Source of the DNA: an uncultured Granulosicoccaceae bacterium
GTDB taxonomy: Bacteria > Pseudomonadota > Gammaproteobacteria > Granulosicoccales > Granulosicoccaceae
Direction of reading: 5' to 3'
Assembly (NCBI GenBank): GCA_937922675.1
Contig: CALAJN010000010.1
Coordinates: forward strand, 62,001 to 126,000
DNA: 64,000 nucleotides
Made by a program: the position numbers and the translations under genes. Under the pieces are notes generated by a model. The model saw only the letters and a program-made list of their open reading frames with translations. It did no database searches and was not told where the DNA came from. This document shows positions 40,712 through 48,760 of the stretch, piece after piece (position 1 is the first letter of the stretch; every line of letters starts with the position of its first letter).

Positions 40712-41427
40712 TCACCTTCGACTCGGTTAGCCTTCGCTACAGCGGGGGTAAAGCGGCCCTTGAAAACATCTCGTTCAGCCTCGAGACCGGTAGCTTTACT
40801 TTTTTGACCGGACACTCGGGCGCTGGCAAGAGCTCGCTCCTGCGCCTGATTGCCAGGCTCGAGCGACCTACATCGGGGCGTATCGACGTGGGCGGCATCG
40901 ATTACAGCCGCCTGAAGCCACGCCGCGAGCTCGCTTTGCGACGCCAGATGGGGGTCATCTTCCAGGACAATCAACTGCTCAACGATCGCAATCTGTTCGA
41001 CAACGTTGCCCTGCCCTTGATCATCGGCGGCTATGGCTACAACGACATCGTCACACGTGTGAGCGCAGCCTTGCACCGTGTCGGACTTGAACATGCTGCC
41101 GACATGCAACCCGAAACTCTCTCCGGTGGCGAGCAACAACGTGCCGGAATCGCGCGCGCTCTGGTAGCGCGGCCGCGACTGTTACTGGCTGATGAGCCCA
41201 CCGGTAACCTGGATGCAGCGATGAGCGAAGACATCATGCAACTGCTGCTGCAGTTTCATCGCTCGGGTGTAACGGTGCTATTTGCAACACACGACACCGA
41301 GCTTCTTGCCCGCCACCGCTTTGCGCAGCTCAAACTAGCTGGCGGACGCAGCGTCAGCCCACGAGGATTGTCCGATACATCCTTGGCGCAACACCAGATC
41401 CCCCGACGATCAGAGTCGCATGTCTGA
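40708..41427 (+). CDS. ftsE: Cell division ATP-binding protein FtsE
   Basis: ABC-type ATPase that with FtsX activates periplasmic peptidoglycan hydrolases at the division septum. The 239-residue protein has Walker [14 protein letters not shown], signature [10 protein letters not shown] and Walker [13 protein letters not shown]. It begins with a TTG codon that overlaps the ftsY stop as TTGA, so translation is probably coupled and kept low. The C-terminal 20 residues are variable. Confidence 0.95.
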
Positions 41428-42406
41428 ACCCAGAGCTGGTCACCGCAACGCAAGTCCCCACACGGCGCTAACACGCGCCATTGGCTCTCGCATGAGTTAT
41501 ACCCAACGCGGCTACGCCTGGCGTCGCACCCTGGCACGGCTCCGCACCCGCCCCTTCGCAAGCGGCTTGACCTTGTTGGTTCTCGGCATCGTCCTGGCAA
41601 TGCCGGTGTTGCTGTCTTTTCTCGCGGGCGCGCTAGATGAATTGCGTGGCAATGAGGACCAGGGGGCCACCCTGACAGCCTACCTCTCGCTGGATGTGGC
41701 AGATCTTGATGGAGCATCGCTTGCAACACAGCTCGCCGCACGTCCTGGTATACAGAGCACGCGCTACGTGTCCCGTGACGAGGCTCTGGCGACCTTTCGC
41801 GCAGAGAGCGATCTAGGCGATGCACTCGATGTACTCGGAAGCAATCCCCTGCCGGGGGCGATCGTTATCGCGCCCGAGCGCGCCACCGCCGGCCGGCAAC
41901 GCATGCAGGCACTTGCGACCGAGATCGAGCAAATCAGTGATATCGAACGCGTGCGCTACGACTTGCAATGGGTGGAGCGTCTACGGGCTGTCGTTGCGGT
42001 CGCCCGCGTTGCCGCCGCTCTGTTGGCAGGGTTTCTGACCCTGACAGCCCTGCTGGTCGTGGGCAATACCATCCGGCTCGAGCTACTCGATCGGCGCTCC
42101 GAGCGCGAGGTCAGCCACCTGCTTGGCGCAAGCCGCAGCTTCATGAATCGGCCATTTGTCTACACAGGCTTGTTGTACGGCCTGCTAGGCGGGCTGATCG
42201 CCACAGGGCTCGCTATCGCGGCCTTTTCTCTGCTAAAACGCCCTGCCGATGAGTTGGCGGGTCTGTATGGAGCCCAAATGGGCTTGAGTTGGCCGCCAAA
42301 GGCTCTGATTGGCTTGATTCCCGCCACAGGAGCCCTACTGGGGCTTGTTGGCGCATTATCCACTCTGTACGGACCCTCACGACAGAGAATTTACGCCGAC
42401 GCGTGA
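41420..42406 (+). CDS. ftsX: Cell division membrane protein FtsX
   Basis: 328-residue permease-like partner of FtsE. A long cytoplasmic N-terminus (about 45 residues) precedes the first helix (ASGLTLLVLGIVLAMPVLLS region), then a periplasmic loop (about 75-210) that in the family contacts amidase activators, and three further helices with the conserved LLGASRSFMNRPF. It overlaps ftsE by eight bases. Last gene before rpoH. Confidence 0.93.
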   Translation: MSEPRAGHRNASPHTALTRAIGSRMSYTQRGYAWRRTLARLRTRPFASGLTLLVLGIVLAMPVLLSFLAGALDELRGNEDQGATLTAYLSLDVADLDGASLATQLAARPGIQSTRYVSRDEALATFRAESDLGDALDVLGSNPLPGAIVIAPERATAGRQRMQALATEIEQISDIERVRYDLQWVERLRAVVAVARVAAALLAGFLTLTALLVVGNTIRLELLDRRSEREVSHLLGASRSFMNRPFVYTGLLYGLLGGLIATGLAIAAFSLLKRPADELAGLYGAQMGLSWPPKALIGLIPATGALLGLVGALSTLYGPSRQRIYADA

Positions 42407-42505
42407 AATCCAAACACCTCGGAAAACGTACAAGTCACTGAATTTAGTAATTTATTTCGTTAGTCTGGGTAATTCAGGCATAGGATCTGAACCTCAAGTT
42501 TCAGA

Positions 42506-42533
42506 GGAACTTTGCCGCCAGTTAGCACTCTCA
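42506..42533 (+). promoter_or_regulatory. Sigma-E-type promoter of rpoH
   Basis: GGAACTT at 42506-42512 equals the sigma-E -35 consensus. After exactly 16 bases comes TCTCA (42529-42533), one change from the TCTRA -10 consensus. Transcription would start near 42540, about 44 bases before the rpoH ATG. E. coli rpoH also has a sigma-E-dependent promoter, which supports the reading. The -10 overlaps the left arm of the CIRCE operator. Confidence 0.7.
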
Positions 42534-42548
42534 CCTCTTGAGTGCTAG
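42522..42548. promoter_or_regulatory. CIRCE operator (HrcA binding site) before rpoH
   Basis: TTAGCACTC, nine bases, GAGTGCTAG: 17 of 18 arm positions match the CIRCE consensus TTAGCACTC-N9-GAGTGCTAA, with the exact nine-base spacer. CIRCE is the operator of the heat-inducible repressor HrcA and normally precedes groESL, dnaK or hrcA. Here it overlaps the core of the rpoH promoter, from about -18 to +9, an ideal place for repression. Confidence 0.88.
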
Positions 42549-42583
42549 CCTAGGCTGGCAAGAACTATTGGAGGTACTTGATA

Positions 42584-43453
42584 ATGAGTACAGCACTGAC
42601 TACTTCACACAACAACGTAGCCCTTCCGTCGGTCAGCGATGACCTGAATGGCTACTTCGCGCGCATCGCCAATATCGAGCTGCTCTCCGTCGAGGAAGAG
42701 CAAACTCTGGCGCGGCGTCTGCGCGAAAACGAAGATCTGGATGCGGCACGCCAGCTGGTCATGTCCCAGCTGCGGTTTGTGGTGCATATCGCGCGCACGT
42801 ACAAGGGCTACGGTCTGCCGATGGCCGATCTGGTCCAAGAGGGCAACGTGGGGCTGATGAAGGCTGTAAAACGCTTTGATCCGGATGTAGGCGTGCGCCT
42901 GATCTCGTTCGCGGTCCATTGGATTCGTGCCGAGATTCACGAATACGTGATTCGCAACTGGCGCATCGTGAAGGTGGCAACCACCAAGGCACAACGCAAG
43001 CTGTTCTTCAAATTGCGCAGCGAGAAGAAAGCTCTCAACTGGTTTAGCCAGGATGAGGTAGATCGTGTTGCTGAAGACCTGAACGTAGACCCGAAGGTGG
43101 TGGTCGAGATGGAGTCACGAATGCACGGTCACGACAGTGCATTTGACGCGCCTGTGGGAGCTGGCGAGGATCGTGTCGCCCTGTCACCATCTGATCTTCT
43201 GCATGATGATGCTGATGATCCGTCCATGGTGATTGAAAGCGGCGACGACTACGAGCGATCGCTCGAAGGACTTGCAGCAGGCTTTGAAACGCTTGATGAG
43301 CGCAGCCGCACAATCCTTGAGCGGCGCTGGTTAGCCGATGAGAAGGCCACCCTGCACGAACTTGCGGGTGAATACGGTGTATCAGCCGAGCGGATCCGTC
43401 AGATCGAGAAGGCGGCGATGAAGAAGCTCAAGACACAACTATTGGCAGCGTAG
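42584..43453 (+). CDS. rpoH: RNA polymerase heat-shock sigma factor RpoH (sigma-32)
   Basis: 289-residue group 3 sigma factor. Region 2 is complete (DLVQEGNVGLMKAVKRFDP, then VHWIRAEIHEYVIRNW) and the RpoH box is recognisable (TTKAQRKLFFKLRSEKK), which separates it from RpoD and RpoS. Region 4 ends in YGVSAERIRQIEKAAMKKLK. ATG 42584 has GGAGG nine bases upstream. The gene follows ftsEX as in other gammaproteobacteria, with its own promoter carrying sigma-E and CIRCE elements, and ends at a strong terminator. Confidence 0.97.
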   Translation: MSTALTTSHNNVALPSVSDDLNGYFARIANIELLSVEEEQTLARRLRENEDLDAARQLVMSQLRFVVHIARTYKGYGLPMADLVQEGNVGLMKAVKRFDPDVGVRLISFAVHWIRAEIHEYVIRNWRIVKVATTKAQRKLFFKLRSEKKALNWFSQDEVDRVAEDLNVDPKVVVEMESRMHGHDSAFDAPVGAGEDRVALSPSDLLHDDADDPSMVIESGDDYERSLEGLAAGFETLDERSRTILERRWLADEKATLHELAGEYGVSAERIRQIEKAAMKKLKTQLLAA

Positions 43454-43519: not shown

Positions 43520-44917
43520 TTACCCGCTTGAGGAAAAGGTAACTGTCACTTTCAGCCCCGGATCGTTGTCAGACATAACAATTGATCCGGCATGCAAATC
43601 GCTTATCGCCTTCACCATACTCAAACCAAGTCCCGTACCACGCGTGGTCCGGCTACGCTCCAGGCGGTACAGTCGCTGAAGCACTTTTTCGCGATACTCG
43701 GCAGGAATGCCGGGCCCAGTATCAGTAACTGACACCCAGACAGTATCACCTGTCACTCCTCCGTCAAGCTCGATGTTGACACCGTCAGGACAATGATGAA
43801 TCGCATTCTCGACAAGGTTGATCACCAGTTGCAGTAGCAACTCACGATCGCCCAGCATTGACAGCTCGGACGCGCCTGAAAGTCGATTGACCAGCGTGTG
43901 GCCAGATTCTTCTGCCACAGGCTCGTACACTTCATGCGCCAAGTCGAGTATGTCAGCTAGATTCAGCTGCTCGAAGCTGGCACGCCTCGCTCCAGACTCG
44001 ATCTGTGCCACCCGCAGTAGTGCTTCAAACGTAGAGTTTATGTGATCACCTTCAACCATCGCTTCTTCCAGTGACGCACGCGCGCTCACGGCCGCCTCAT
44101 CAGAAAGCGTGCTCACATGATCGGAAGCTTCATTCAAGTGAATATGCAAACGATTCAAAGGGGTTTTCAGGTCGTGCGCGATGTCGGTACTGACCTGACG
44201 AATGCTATCTACATTGTCTTTCAGCCGATCCACGGCTGCATTGATATGCATCGCAAGATCATCGATGTCATCCATCGCGGGCGTGACAGGGACGCGCGCC
44301 GCCAAATTGCCTTCAGCTACCAGCGACATGGTGTTACGGAAGCCGTACATCCGGCAGTTGTAATAGCGCGCAAGCCATATTGCCGCCCCTACGGCCAGGA
44401 GCACAGACCCTGCCAAGGCCCACAATAGACACCGCAGTGCGATAGAGCGCAGATCTTCCAGAGGATTGAGCCCCTTGCCGACAGACAGGATGTAATCGTC
44501 TTTCAGCAAAGAGGTGAAAAATCGATACTCGCCGTCGCCACTTTCGATTCCAAGAGTATTGGCGTCCAACGTCGCCAGGCCGACGTCACCAGGACTAGCA
44601 CCAATGTTGCTGTATCGCAGCTCACCTTGCGCATCTGCCAGATAAAACCCGAGAGGCTCTCGCATCGGGCCTTCTTTGCTCGCTATGAGGTAGTCGACGA
44701 CTCCATCTACACCATCATTGTCATAGATCTTGCCAATGACCGCATGCCGTGCCTGCAGACTCTCGTCGATACGCTCAAGAGCTTGCTGCTGCAGAGCATG
44801 GTGGAAGCTGTAACCAGCTATACCAACGGTCAGGCAGAACAGCAACCAGAAGCCCATACCGATACGGAAGGGCGTGCTTCTCAACAAGGAGGAACGCGCG
44901 TAAGTCTCGCGTAACAT
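43520..44917 (-). CDS. Two-component sensor histidine kinase with HAMP domain
   Basis: 465-residue kinase from ATG 44917. First helix at about 18-37 (GMGFWLLFCLTVGIAGY), a periplasmic sensor loop of about 130 residues, second helix (LLWALAGSVLLAVGAAIWLA), HAMP, phosphoacceptor TDIAHDLKTPLNRL, then HATPase_c with LVENAIHHC and DTGPGIP. The frame stays open upstream to 45205 but that part lies inside the regulator gene; the true start may be slightly upstream of 44917, and 136 bases separate it from the regulator stop. Partner of the response regulator just upstream. Confidence 0.9.
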   Translation of the reverse strand: MLRETYARSSLLRSTPFRIGMGFWLLFCLTVGIAGYSFHHALQQQALERIDESLQARHAVIGKIYDNDGVDGVVDYLIASKEGPMREPLGFYLADAQGELRYSNIGASPGDVGLATLDANTLGIESGDGEYRFFTSLLKDDYILSVGKGLNPLEDLRSIALRCLLWALAGSVLLAVGAAIWLARYYNCRMYGFRNTMSLVAEGNLAARVPVTPAMDDIDDLAMHINAAVDRLKDNVDSIRQVSTDIAHDLKTPLNRLHIHLNEASDHVSTLSDEAAVSARASLEEAMVEGDHINSTFEALLRVAQIESGARRASFEQLNLADILDLAHEVYEPVAEESGHTLVNRLSGASELSMLGDRELLLQLVINLVENAIHHCPDGVNIELDGGVTGDTVWVSVTDTGPGIPAEYREKVLQRLYRLERSRTTRGTGLGLSMVKAISDLHAGSIVMSDNDPGLKVTVTFSSSG

Positions 44918-45053
44918 CAATTGCCACAGATTGGCTGGTTCCGGGCATTGGCGACGATCGACAACCAACGGCGCGCCCGTCTCCTCAAACCTCACAGCGC
45001 ATGCCGGGTTTGTCGCAATGCCTCCTGTGGCGTGAGTCGGCATGGAACTGGAG

Positions 45054-45731
45054 TTAGCGTGGCGCATGCAGGCTGTACCCCAGGTTCCGTACTGTATGCA
45101 ACAGAGCTTGGTCAAAGGGCTTGTCGATTTTAGTGCGCAACCGGCTGATGTGAGTCTCGACCACGCTGGTCTTGGGGTCGAAGTGGAAATCCCACACCTG
45201 CTCAAGCAGCATGGTCCTGCTGACTACTCGGTCCGAGTTACGCATCAATACCTCAAGCAAGGTGAATTCACGCGGTTGCAATTCAATATTCACCCCCCCA
45301 CGACGCGCTGTCCTCTTGAGCAGATCCAGTTCAAGATCGGCCACGTTCAGATGAGTGACCTCAACCGATGCAGCGGGTCGGCGCGACAAGGCATTGACCC
45401 TGGCAAGCAGCTCTGAAAAAGCGAAGGGCTTGGTCAGGTAGTCGTCGGCGCCTGCCTCCAGACCCTCTACTCTGTCGTCCACCCCGGATACGGCTGTCAG
45501 AAATATGACTGGCGTCTTCAGCCCTGCCGCCCGCAAACCCTTGACCAGAGCCAGACCGTCCATGCCTGGCAGCATCCTGTCTACAACGAGTACCTCGTAC
45601 TCGGTTTGCATACACTGGGCCATGGCCTCACGCCCGTTGTCCAGCGTGTCCACTACATGACCGGCCTCAGTCAGACCCTTGGCTGCGTACTCGGCCGTGC
45701 GCTGATCATCTTCAACGAGCAGGATGTGCAC
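45054..45731 (-). CDS. OmpR/PhoB-family response regulator
   Basis: 225-residue DNA-binding regulator. The receiver has the acidic pair (VEDDQ), phosphoacceptor Asp51 in VVDRMLPGMDG and the conserved lysine in DYLTKPFAF. The winged-helix domain spans about 125-222 (LQPREFTLLEVLMRN, VETHISRLRTKID). It lies between a small exported-protein gene (19-base gap) and the sensor kinase. The divergent GH16 gene is a natural regulatory target. Confidence 0.94.
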   Translation of the reverse strand: MHILLVEDDQRTAEYAAKGLTEAGHVVDTLDNGREAMAQCMQTEYEVLVVDRMLPGMDGLALVKGLRAAGLKTPVIFLTAVSGVDDRVEGLEAGADDYLTKPFAFSELLARVNALSRRPAASVEVTHLNVADLELDLLKRTARRGGVNIELQPREFTLLEVLMRNSDRVVSRTMLLEQVWDFHFDPKTSVVETHISRLRTKIDKPFDQALLHTVRNLGYSLHAPR

Positions 45732-46071: not shown

Positions 46072-46210
46072 TTGGCCTCAGCTTCGCCGACAATTTACGG
46101 ATTTGTATGCTTTTACCCACTCGCTCCCGGTTGCACCCTTTGCTGATGCCTGGTCAGCGACCTGAGAATTGTGTCACATTGACTCGGTCGCCCCCGCTTC
46201 CGATGTCACG

Positions 46211-48760
46211 ATGATCACTCCACGCACCTGTCTGTACACGCGCCTGTTCCGCGAACAGCACCTGTCCATGCTGGTTGGCGGCCTTTTTGCTCTGGGGCTG
46301 GTCGGCACGGCCGCTGCCGGCGCACCAGACCAGCCAGCTGCGCCAACCGGTACGGTCTCTGGCGACTTGATCTCGCTCACCTGGCCTGAAGGCACGGACG
46401 ATGAAGAGGTCAGCGGTTACAACGTCTACCGCGATAACCAGTACGTCACCACCGTGCGCTCGACCACAGCCAGCCTTCGATTCGGTGACGCGGACAGCGT
46501 TGCCATTTCAATCGTCGCCTTTGATACACCCGGTGACGGCTCGGCCCGCGGTTACTCGATCCAGTCTCAGGCCACGGTCTTCACCCGCGACGGCGAGCCA
46601 GAGTTGGCCGAAGAGCCCGAAGAGCGCGCAGAGCCCGAAGAGCCGGGCGTCCAGCCAATCCCGAACAATCCCACCACACCAGCTGAGCTGGTCGCCGAAA
46701 GATCCACTGAGAACTCAGCCACCCTGAGCTGGCAGGCCTCGGTCGACAGCGATGGTGTCGCGGGTTACAACGTGTACCGGGATGACCGCTATGTCGCTTC
46801 GGTCGGCTCTCCCGGCTATATCGATACCGGGTTGACCGCCGGTGTGGCATACGATTACTACGTCGTCGCCTATGACACGCCGCGAAATTTCTCTGGTCGA
46901 TCAGCCAGTGCCACAGCGCCCGATCAGGTTGGATTGGGCGAGATAGAGACCGAGACTGAGACCGGGGCGGATACCACGCCGCCTATGGCACCGGCTGGCG
47001 TCATGGTTACCAGCAGCGCCACCGGCAATCTGATCGCCTGGAGTACAGCATCTGACGAAGTCGGAGTCGCAGGCTACAACCTGTACCGGAATAATCGCTA
47101 CCTCACGACCGTGCCAGGCCTGTTTTTCAATGACACCGAAAGCACGCTGATCTCGGACGAGTACTACTTGGTGGCCTTCGACGACGCGCGCAACTTCTCC
47201 CCTCGTTCCGCGACAGCCAGCGGCACCGACGACACGACCGACGGTGGTACAGAGTTGACTCCCCATAGCCCCCCAGACCTTGACGAGCCTTTCGCCGACG
47301 CGATTCCGAGCCCGTCTTTTTCTGATCCCTTCGGCTACGAACTTGAGACCGATCCAGAGAGCGCGGTCGAGGGCGGCGCACCGACGCAGCCCAAGAACCT
47401 GAGACTGGATATCGTCGGCAACGATTGGGCCGAGTTCAGTTGGGCACCTTCCAATGATGACCGGGAGGTTGTCGCTTACGAGATTACGCGCAGTGATGGC
47501 GTTACCTATACCTTGACTTCGTCTTTACCTGAAGGCCTTGCACTGGATGCAGGCACGTATGCGGAATACGAGAAGTACTGGCAAACCACAAGCTTTATCG
47601 ACTGCAACAACACGCGATTTGCGTTTGCGCCAGGTAGCGATAAAGCCAATGATGCGCCGTGGAATTGCGTTGATACCGGCCCGCGTCCCGGCGACGACTT
47701 CAGCTACACGGTTGCGGCCATAGACGATGAAGGGCAGCGCTCTCCTGAATCAGAAACTCTGGAAATTGCCTTTGCAGAACAAATCAATTCCCCGGTTCCC
47801 TTCTACGACGACATCTTTCTCGAACCGGGCGATCGCTTTGCCTCTGTTAACAATCTGTCTGAAGTGCAGCACTTCATTGAGGACTTTGATCTCGTGTTTG
47901 AAGACGACTTTGACACAGACAGTATCGAGCCAACTCATTGGAACACGGGGCTCGTGTGGGCCGACACGCGCATCATCAATGGCGAGCAGCAGTACTTCGT
48001 CAATACACAGCAAGCGCCGGACTTTGGCTACAACCCTTTCAATCTTGATGGCGATGCAGACGACGGAGCACTGGACGGCGAGGGCTTGAGCATCGAGGCC
48101 ATACCGATACCAGACAGCTTGCGCGGCAGCTTGCCGCCAATCTGCGATGAGATTGATCCAACAGGACTCGACCGTTGCGAGTTCTTGTCAGGCGCTCTGT
48201 CCAGCCATGATCGATTCAGTTTCATCTATGGCTATGTAGAGGGGCGCATCCGAGCCAGCTCTATCTCGGGTGCGCTATCAAGCTTCTATCTCTATCATCG
48301 ATACTCAGGCGGCGAAGATGATATTCGCCTGCGCCACGGGCCCGAGATAGACATTCTGGAGTACTTGGGTGAAAACCCGTTTGGCGATGCGGATGCATTC
48401 CAGACCTACCACTTTGAGGATCCAAACACCGGGATCATCCGCTCGTCACCCACGATGAACCACGAGAAAAACCCGCTTGATTCCAGTGATGTCTTTGGCG
48501 GTGAATACCACACATTTGGTGTTCTCTGGGAGCCGCAGTTGGTAATCTGGTACATCGATGGCATTGAGATCAAGCGATTGCGCGGTCCGCAGATCGCTCG
48601 CCAGCCCATGAACATCGTTAACTACCTTGTAGCCGGATCAGGCTGGGCGCCGACACCGGACATCACCCAAGCGGATACCTTTCCGCTGAACATGGATATC
48701 GACTATATCCGCGTCTATCAGCGTGAGGCCTATCAGGGGACAGCCAACTTCGGGAACTGA
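46211..48760 (+). CDS. Secreted family-16 glycoside hydrolase with fibronectin-III repeats
   Basis: 849-residue exported enzyme. A long signal region (hydrophobic MLVGGLFALGLVGTAAAG) precedes four Fn3-like modules. The first three share a Y-N-V/L-Y-R-D/N-N/D-x-Y motif (YNVYRDNQYV, YNVYRDDRYV, YNLYRNNRYL) and are joined by Glu/Pro-rich or Thr-rich linkers. The fourth ends near residue 520. The C-terminal domain is GH16, with catalytic motif E-I-D-I-L-E (E-x-D-x-x-E) and an end strand DIDYIRVYQ. GH16 enzymes hydrolyse beta-1,3/1,4-glucans, agar, carrageenan or similar; laminarin-type glucan is likely but unproven. Divergent from a two-component operon. Confidence 0.9.
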   Translation: MITPRTCLYTRLFREQHLSMLVGGLFALGLVGTAAAGAPDQPAAPTGTVSGDLISLTWPEGTDDEEVSGYNVYRDNQYVTTVRSTTASLRFGDADSVAISIVAFDTPGDGSARGYSIQSQATVFTRDGEPELAEEPEERAEPEEPGVQPIPNNPTTPAELVAERSTENSATLSWQASVDSDGVAGYNVYRDDRYVASVGSPGYIDTGLTAGVAYDYYVVAYDTPRNFSGRSASATAPDQVGLGEIETETETGADTTPPMAPAGVMVTSSATGNLIAWSTASDEVGVAGYNLYRNNRYLTTVPGLFFNDTESTLISDEYYLVAFDDARNFSPRSATASGTDDTTDGGTELTPHSPPDLDEPFADAIPSPSFSDPFGYELETDPESAVEGGAPTQPKNLRLDIVGNDWAEFSWAPSNDDREVVAYEITRSDGVTYTLTSSLPEGLALDAGTYAEYEKYWQTTSFIDCNNTRFAFAPGSDKANDAPWNCVDTGPRPGDDFSYTVAAIDDEGQRSPESETLEIAFAEQINSPVPFYDDIFLEPGDRFASVNNLSEVQHFIEDFDLVFEDDFDTDSIEPTHWNTGLVWADTRIINGEQQYFVNTQQAPDFGYNPFNLDGDADDGALDGEGLSIEAIPIPDSLRGSLPPICDEIDPTGLDRCEFLSGALSSHDRFSFIYGYVEGRIRASSISGALSSFYLYHRYSGGEDDIRLRHGPEIDILEYLGENPFGDADAFQTYHFEDPNTGIIRSSPTMNHEKNPLDSSDVFGGEYHTFGVLWEPQLVIWYIDGIEIKRLRGPQIARQPMNIVNYLVAGSGWAPTPDITQADTFPLNMDIDYIRVYQREAYQGTANFGN

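Follow-up and report, generated by a model that had tools for sequence, protein, structure and literature searches.

In this bacterium, transcription of rpoH appears to be governed by a composite control site in which a sigma-E promoter and an HrcA operator are interlocked, with HrcA excluding sigma-E polymerase and chaperone feedback acting through the repressor, a reading to which we give a probability of roughly 80%. Our comparisons suggest that here, and in many related bacteria, a single DNA site couples two stress alarms.

Layout of the rpoH control region

The window, that is, the whole stretch of 64,000 nucleotides that was analysed, carries the following features around rpoH.

41420 to 42406, + strand: ftsX, the neighbour 5' of rpoH, in the gene order ftsY-ftsE-ftsX-rpoH
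42506 to 42512, + strand: GGAACTT, sigma-E-type -35 element, by direct sequence reading
42522 to 42548, no strand assigned: CIRCE operator (predicted HrcA site), TTAGCACTC-N9-GAGTGCTAG, 17 of 18 arm positions; left arm TTAGCACTC at 42522-42530, spacer TCACCTCTT, right arm GAGTGCTAG at 42540-42548
42529 to 42533, + strand: TCTCA, sigma-E-type -10 element, 16 nt after GGAACTT, by direct sequence reading
42538 to 42542, + strand: expected start region of the sigma-E transcript (about 42540), placed from the spacing
42543 to 42551, + strand: TGCTAGCCT, degenerate equivalent of the extended -10-like TGCTAANNT conserved in relatives
42570 to 42574, + strand: GGAGG, probable ribosome-binding site of rpoH, by eye
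42584 to 43453, + strand: rpoH, heat-shock sigma factor sigma-32, ATG at 42584; TIGR02392 at 390.8 bits (cut-off 323.1)

Judged by the consensus of sigma-E promoters and their -10 element (GGAACTT, 16-17 nt, TCNNA), which served as our criterion, the GGAACTT-N16-TCTCA found between ftsX and rpoH is a full-consensus sigma-E-type promoter. Its -10 element straddles the inner edge of the left CIRCE arm, taking two bases from the end of that arm and three from the start of the spacer, and the operator ends 35 nt before rpoH; a transcript starting near 42540 would fall at the right CIRCE arm. An earlier note on this DNA had read GGAACTT, 16 bp and TCTCA as a sigma-E promoter of rpoH with its -10 inside a CIRCE of 17 matching arm positions in 18 and a nine-base spacer. 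The promoter motif is confirmed by direct reading of 42506-42533, and the operator by a pattern scan together with shuffles.

Elsewhere in the neighbourhood, the opposite strand directly 3' of rpoH (43520-45731) encodes a sensor kinase and a response regulator with a Trans_reg_C domain, and 46169-48760 encodes a large protein with fibronectin type III and glycoside hydrolase family 16 domains, perhaps a secreted polysaccharide-degrading enzyme.

Motif significance and the predicted HrcA regulon

The CIRCE at rpoH is the sole match in the window at up to three mismatches, and 100 shuffles produced none. At the same threshold the whole genome holds CIRCE at two places only, rpoH and groESL, while the reversed CIRCE used as a genome-wide control gives one forward and one reverse match, and none at up to two mismatches. 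The exact string GGAACTT-N16-TCTNA occurs once in the genome, at rpoH. When one mismatch is allowed, the sigma-E string shows no genome-wide enrichment (15 matches vs 60 in the reversed control), which is a weak test of a single promoter; the motif is significant because it is conserved at a fixed distance from CIRCE, and on its own it would not be. Chance origin of the overlap was considered as well, and was rejected by the shuffles, the reversed-pattern control and the offset profile described below.

Both the putative repressor and the sigma factor are encoded in the same genome. The hrcA gene adjoins grpE and is recognised by PF01628 at 208.7 bits and, in its DNA-binding domain, by PF03444 at 21.9 bits (cut-off 21), whereas rpoE is recognised by TIGR02939 at 311.2 bits (cut-off 236.15) and is directly followed by a gene encoding RseA (RseA_N). 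The groESL CIRCE lies at C6:54581, with groES at C6:54713. An hrcA gene elsewhere in the genome and a CIRCE before groESL, which had been named as things to look for, are thus both present. No CIRCE at up to three mismatches was found at hrcA-grpE in this genome. Since the operator occurs at groESL and rpoH only, the predicted HrcA regulon consists of these two. A possible sigma-E promoter, TGAACTA-N15-TCCTA (a partial match), is located 83 nt 5' of the first ATG of the rpoE frame, and the scan for sigma-32 promoters before hrcA, grpE and groES returned no more than partial matches (9-10 of 13), on which no claim is based.

Conservation at named rpoH loci

Protein similarity yielded 80 named rpoH loci, of which 78 had at least 120 nt of upstream sequence (L031 and L077 were left out). 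They include Granulosicoccaceae, Ectothiorhodospiraceae, Sedimenticola, Halothiobacillus, a Solemya symbiont and Alcanivorax (among them the cultured A. hongdengensis, L060, which has the overlap), the closest being Granulosicoccus and other Granulosicoccaceae, mostly metagenome-assembled genomes. CIRCE at up to three mismatches was found 5' of rpoH in 70 of the 78 (54 perfect, 11 with one mismatch and 5 with two) and was absent in 8; four Acinetobacter loci (L074, L080, L081 and L083) have no CIRCE at rpoH.

The distance between the two motifs is strikingly constant. GGAACTT (5/7 or better) has its first base precisely 16 nt 5' of CIRCE at 60 of these 70 loci, compared with 0 to 3 of 70 at each of 23 other tested offsets; in the nearest named relative (L004) it is found at -17. 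Seven of the 70 CIRCE-bearing loci have no sigma-E-like promoter and one has it elsewhere. The spacer is biased too, with T at its first position in 48/70 rpoH sites vs 4/34 groES CIRCEs and A at its third in 49/70 vs 2/34. The idea that GGAACTT could simply be part of the HrcA site was rejected, given that none of the 34 groES CIRCEs has GGAACTT at -16. Conservation of the overlap in close relatives, a further check proposed in the earlier note, is therefore seen both there and across part of the class (60/70; 117/369, see below).

More broadly, CIRCE at up to two mismatches is present in 50 of 57 genomes comprising our own, relatives and class members, and 62 of 69 such sites inspected in context precede groES or rpoH by the rule used; the CIRCEs at L156, L163, L169, L171, L178, L181 and L182 have neither gene recognisable on their downstream side. 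At one locus (L140), two tandem CIRCE-like sites, with one and two mismatches, stand before a single rpoH.

The repeat might alternatively act at the RNA level, as part of a longer upstream transcript, affecting the stability or translation of rpoH mRNA. CIRCE has a role in mRNA stability elsewhere, and a transcript reading through from ftsX, which precedes rpoH and shares its strand, would include the whole repeat. However, conservation of the operator sequence in both arms (perfect in 54 of the 70 named sites) and of its register to the -35 element would be needless for a hairpin, and a transcript begun by sigma-E would have its 5' end within the repeat and contain the right arm only. We consider an RNA-level action very improbable.

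Distribution across the class and association with hrcA

The exact pattern GAAC-N11-CIRCE, which fixes only GAAC, 11 free bases and the CIRCE arms with R at two places, was found in 117 of 369 class genomes and 83 of 271 genera, and its reversed control in none. Among the bases left free in these 117 genomes, TCNNA, with A as third spacer base, is present in 104 and TCTNA in 66, no other spacer position being as skewed as the third; GAAC is followed by T in 89 (GAACT) and then by a further T in 75. In addition, 110 of the 117 overlap genomes have a recognised hrcA vs 268 of 369 overall. Like the other counts given here, these come from related, not independent, genomes, so that the Fisher values overstate independence and are indicative only. 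Six of the seven overlap genomes in which hrcA was not found are 62-88% complete and the seventh (G129) is 99% complete. Three loci or genomes at 97-99% completeness, namely G129, L250 (G163) and L263 (G051), show the overlap, or else a CIRCE with one mismatch at rpoH, and no recognised hrcA; such genomes may reflect either recent loss of hrcA with leftover sites or assembly gaps.

A looser pattern allowing up to three mismatches matched 163 of 369 genomes, 155 of them with hrcA; this count was set aside in favour of the exact one, as many of the rows listed are without the GAAC core and represent chance matches or shifted registers. The downstream neighbour was established for 30 plus 20 loci from the looser pattern. 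In 27 of the first 30, rpoH follows on the same strand; of the others, L125 has rpoH on the other strand, L123 has groES, and at L126 neither was recognised. The 20 further loci, hand-picked for a recognisable -35 element, all stand before rpoH. In a draw from the phylum, the overlap at up to two mismatches occurred in 7 of 299 genomes, all from our own or the same class, a draw much of which is filled by one family (f200) and which does not prove absence outside the class. A lineage-specific oddity was among the candidates rejected, given the 83 of 271 genera in the class draw.

We also looked at genomes in which even the loose overlap is absent. Of the 80 sampled (50 of 113 with hrcA and 30 of 93 lacking it), 75 yielded rpoH (46 and 29, respectively), and the upstream check covered 40 of the 46 and 20 of the 29, mostly those with better RpoH scores, so that the following figures come from partial samples. 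CIRCE stands before rpoH in 32 of the 40 hrcA-bearing genomes. In these 32 regions, the sigma-E-like promoter is found at offsets 14-17 in 12, at 30-32 in five, and at 37 and 43 in two; two others have a sigma-E-like motif only elsewhere and 11 have none by the rule used. In the register at 30-32, CIRCE lies just past the -10 element, over the expected start. Among the 20 genomes without hrcA, by comparison, 3 have a CIRCE-like site at rpoH, two of them with a single mismatch and the third with three; a sigma-E-like promoter is seen in 6, compared with 2.1 expected from shuffles. On the basis of 32/40 vs 3/20 and of the offset counts, CIRCE at rpoH tends to accompany hrcA and, where it occurs, tends to overlie a promoter of sigma-E-like type, at either of two registers. 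This suggests that the site at rpoH is apparently lost when hrcA is lost.

In this regard, CIRCE and the sigma-E promoter could both be real and yet be an inherited accident of no mutual effect in vivo, for instance if HrcA levels were too low. The variety of geometries, including CIRCE with no nearby sigma-E motif in 11 of 32 regions, would agree with such a view. It is nonetheless difficult to reconcile with a register held fixed in 83 of 271 genera or with the rarity of CIRCE at rpoH where hrcA is missing (3/20), and the other recurring register (offset 30-32, 5/32), with CIRCE over the expected start, would also suit repression. An accident of this kind thus seems improbable to us.

A second, extended -10-like element in the right arm

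In most relatives, the right CIRCE arm together with the following NNT forms TGCTAANNT (TGC-TAA-NNT), which looks like the extended -10 of a housekeeping promoter placed inside the operator. The sixth base of the hexamer is T at 62 of 70 named rpoH loci vs 0 of 34 distinct groES CIRCEs, the commonest hexamers at rpoH being TAAAAT (37) and TAATAT (14). Lineage was rejected as the cause of this contrast: all 30 distinct rpoH sites of close relatives carry the sixth-place T, and these relatives also supply 32 of the 35 groES rows. In the window and in L004 the hexamer is TAGCCT, a degenerate form (TGCTAGCCT), and a scan of 42300-42620 in the window revealed no sigma-70-like promoter.

These observations bear on the occlusion reading of the earlier note, in which HrcA would block transcription started by sigma-E. 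That reading is supported, although the note missed the second -10-like element carried by the right arm at 62 of 70 rpoH loci of relatives; in most of them, sigma-E is probably not the sole holoenzyme that HrcA would block. Taken further, HrcA at rpoH might mainly control the housekeeping promoter to which the right arm lends its extended -10, with the sigma-E overlap being secondary. The 62/70 vs 0/34 contrast, which lineage does not explain (30/30 in close relatives), speaks for this possibility, as does the recurrence of the sixth-place T after CIRCEs that have no sigma-E-like promoter nearby (e.g., L224, L227, L229 and L230). Against it, the window itself pairs TAGCCT and no detectable sigma-70-like promoter with a sigma-E promoter at full consensus, and the -10 reading is a matter of sequence resemblance only. 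We therefore regard a mainly housekeeping role as doubtful, though deserving of attention, and retain the interlocked sigma-E promoter and HrcA operator as the preferred reading.

Proposed model for rpoH control

From the sequences found, from their degree of conservation and from the co-occurrence of hrcA, rpoE-rseA and the groESL CIRCE in one genome, we propose a model, in which we infer HrcA binding at rpoH, occlusion of the promoter, the transcript starts and the feedback. As the sigma-E -10 element is built from the left arm and the spacer of the operator, an HrcA dimer and sigma-E polymerase should not occupy the site together. HrcA activity depends on GroE in several bacteria. In Campylobacter, GroESL enhances HrcA binding, as described in passages of a paper that also refers to the titration model of B. 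subtilis (PMC8533110). Along these lines, free GroEL would keep HrcA active and both groESL and rpoH held down. When unfolded protein occupies GroEL, HrcA would lose activity, groESL would be derepressed and sigma-E would gain access to rpoH; in most relatives the housekeeping holoenzyme probably would too, through the extended -10 of the right arm. Sigma-32 would then induce the remaining heat-shock genes, and HrcA would regain its activity as GroEL accumulates. Full rpoH transcription would need both free sigma-E and inactive HrcA.

If this model is true, envelope stress converges with cytoplasmic folding stress on a single DNA segment, and, should it hold in about one third or more of the sampled class genomes, many of them would use repressor and sigma-factor strategies in series, not in parallel. 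The textbook heat-shock circuit of the class comes from E. coli, where no hrcA was found and sigma-32 is controlled mostly by translation, stability and chaperone binding. A bolder extension of the model, plausible although we lean slightly against it, is that in hrcA-bearing gammaproteobacteria the operator at rpoH arose as a component of the promoter, with some 45 nt serving at once as sigma-E -35 and -10 elements, HrcA operator and housekeeping extended -10. Transcription of rpoH would then act as a logical AND, requiring both envelope stress, with sigma-E set free, and cytoplasmic folding stress, with GroEL occupied and HrcA inactive. Such control of the sigma-32 regulon would be ancestral in the class, and the circuit of E. 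coli a simplified remnant left after the loss of hrcA.

Comparison with known systems

The closest precedent is Geobacter sulfurreducens, for which a perfect CIRCE at position -51 relative to rpoH was predicted in 2004 (PMC545781, text and Table 8); groESL and hrcA-grpE-dnaK-dnaJ were assigned sites as well. CIRCE thus precedes rpoH and groESL in both organisms. Geobacter sulfurreducens, however, is a delta-proteobacterium, the text and Table 8 of that paper mention no sigma-E promoter or overlap at its rpoH, and its site at hrcA-grpE-dnaK-dnaJ has no counterpart at up to three mismatches at hrcA-grpE in the genome studied here. In the light of this prediction, and of the 32 out of 40 sampled hrcA genomes that still have CIRCE at rpoH while being without the usual overlap, the interpretation offered by the earlier note stands, with the correction that the wiring is not peculiar to this organism. 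The CIRCE profile of PMC545781 comes from Permina and Gelfand (2003), a study that, from what is cited of it, covers the present class and may have reported such a site at rpoH for some gammaproteobacteria; we found no description of the sigma-E/CIRCE overlap at rpoH in the open-access literature searched.

With E. coli, the likeness lies in the promoter. According to passages of two papers, sigma-E transcribes rpoH from P3 (PMC8745692, PMC8103513), and GGAACTT, the -35 element seen here, is the E. coli RpoE -35 box (PMC8103513). The difference lies in the repressor: PF01628 matched in 7 of 14 control genomes, E. coli not among them, and E. coli P3 would have no HrcA control because no hrcA was found there, in agreement with the earlier note, which had contrasted this wiring with an E. 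coli devoid of HrcA.

The HrcA/CIRCE control of groESL, in turn, shares with the rpoH site its operator (TTAGCACTC-N9-GAGTGCTAA, from which the rpoH site departs by one mismatch in 18) and its predicted repressor. The groES CIRCEs differ from it in having a -10-like stretch at their left edge, no GGAACTT at -16 and no TAANNT (0/34 for each of the latter two). Judged from these sequence comparisons, the overlap at rpoH joins known parts in a variant form that is conserved and widespread in the class; it does not amount to a new kind of system.
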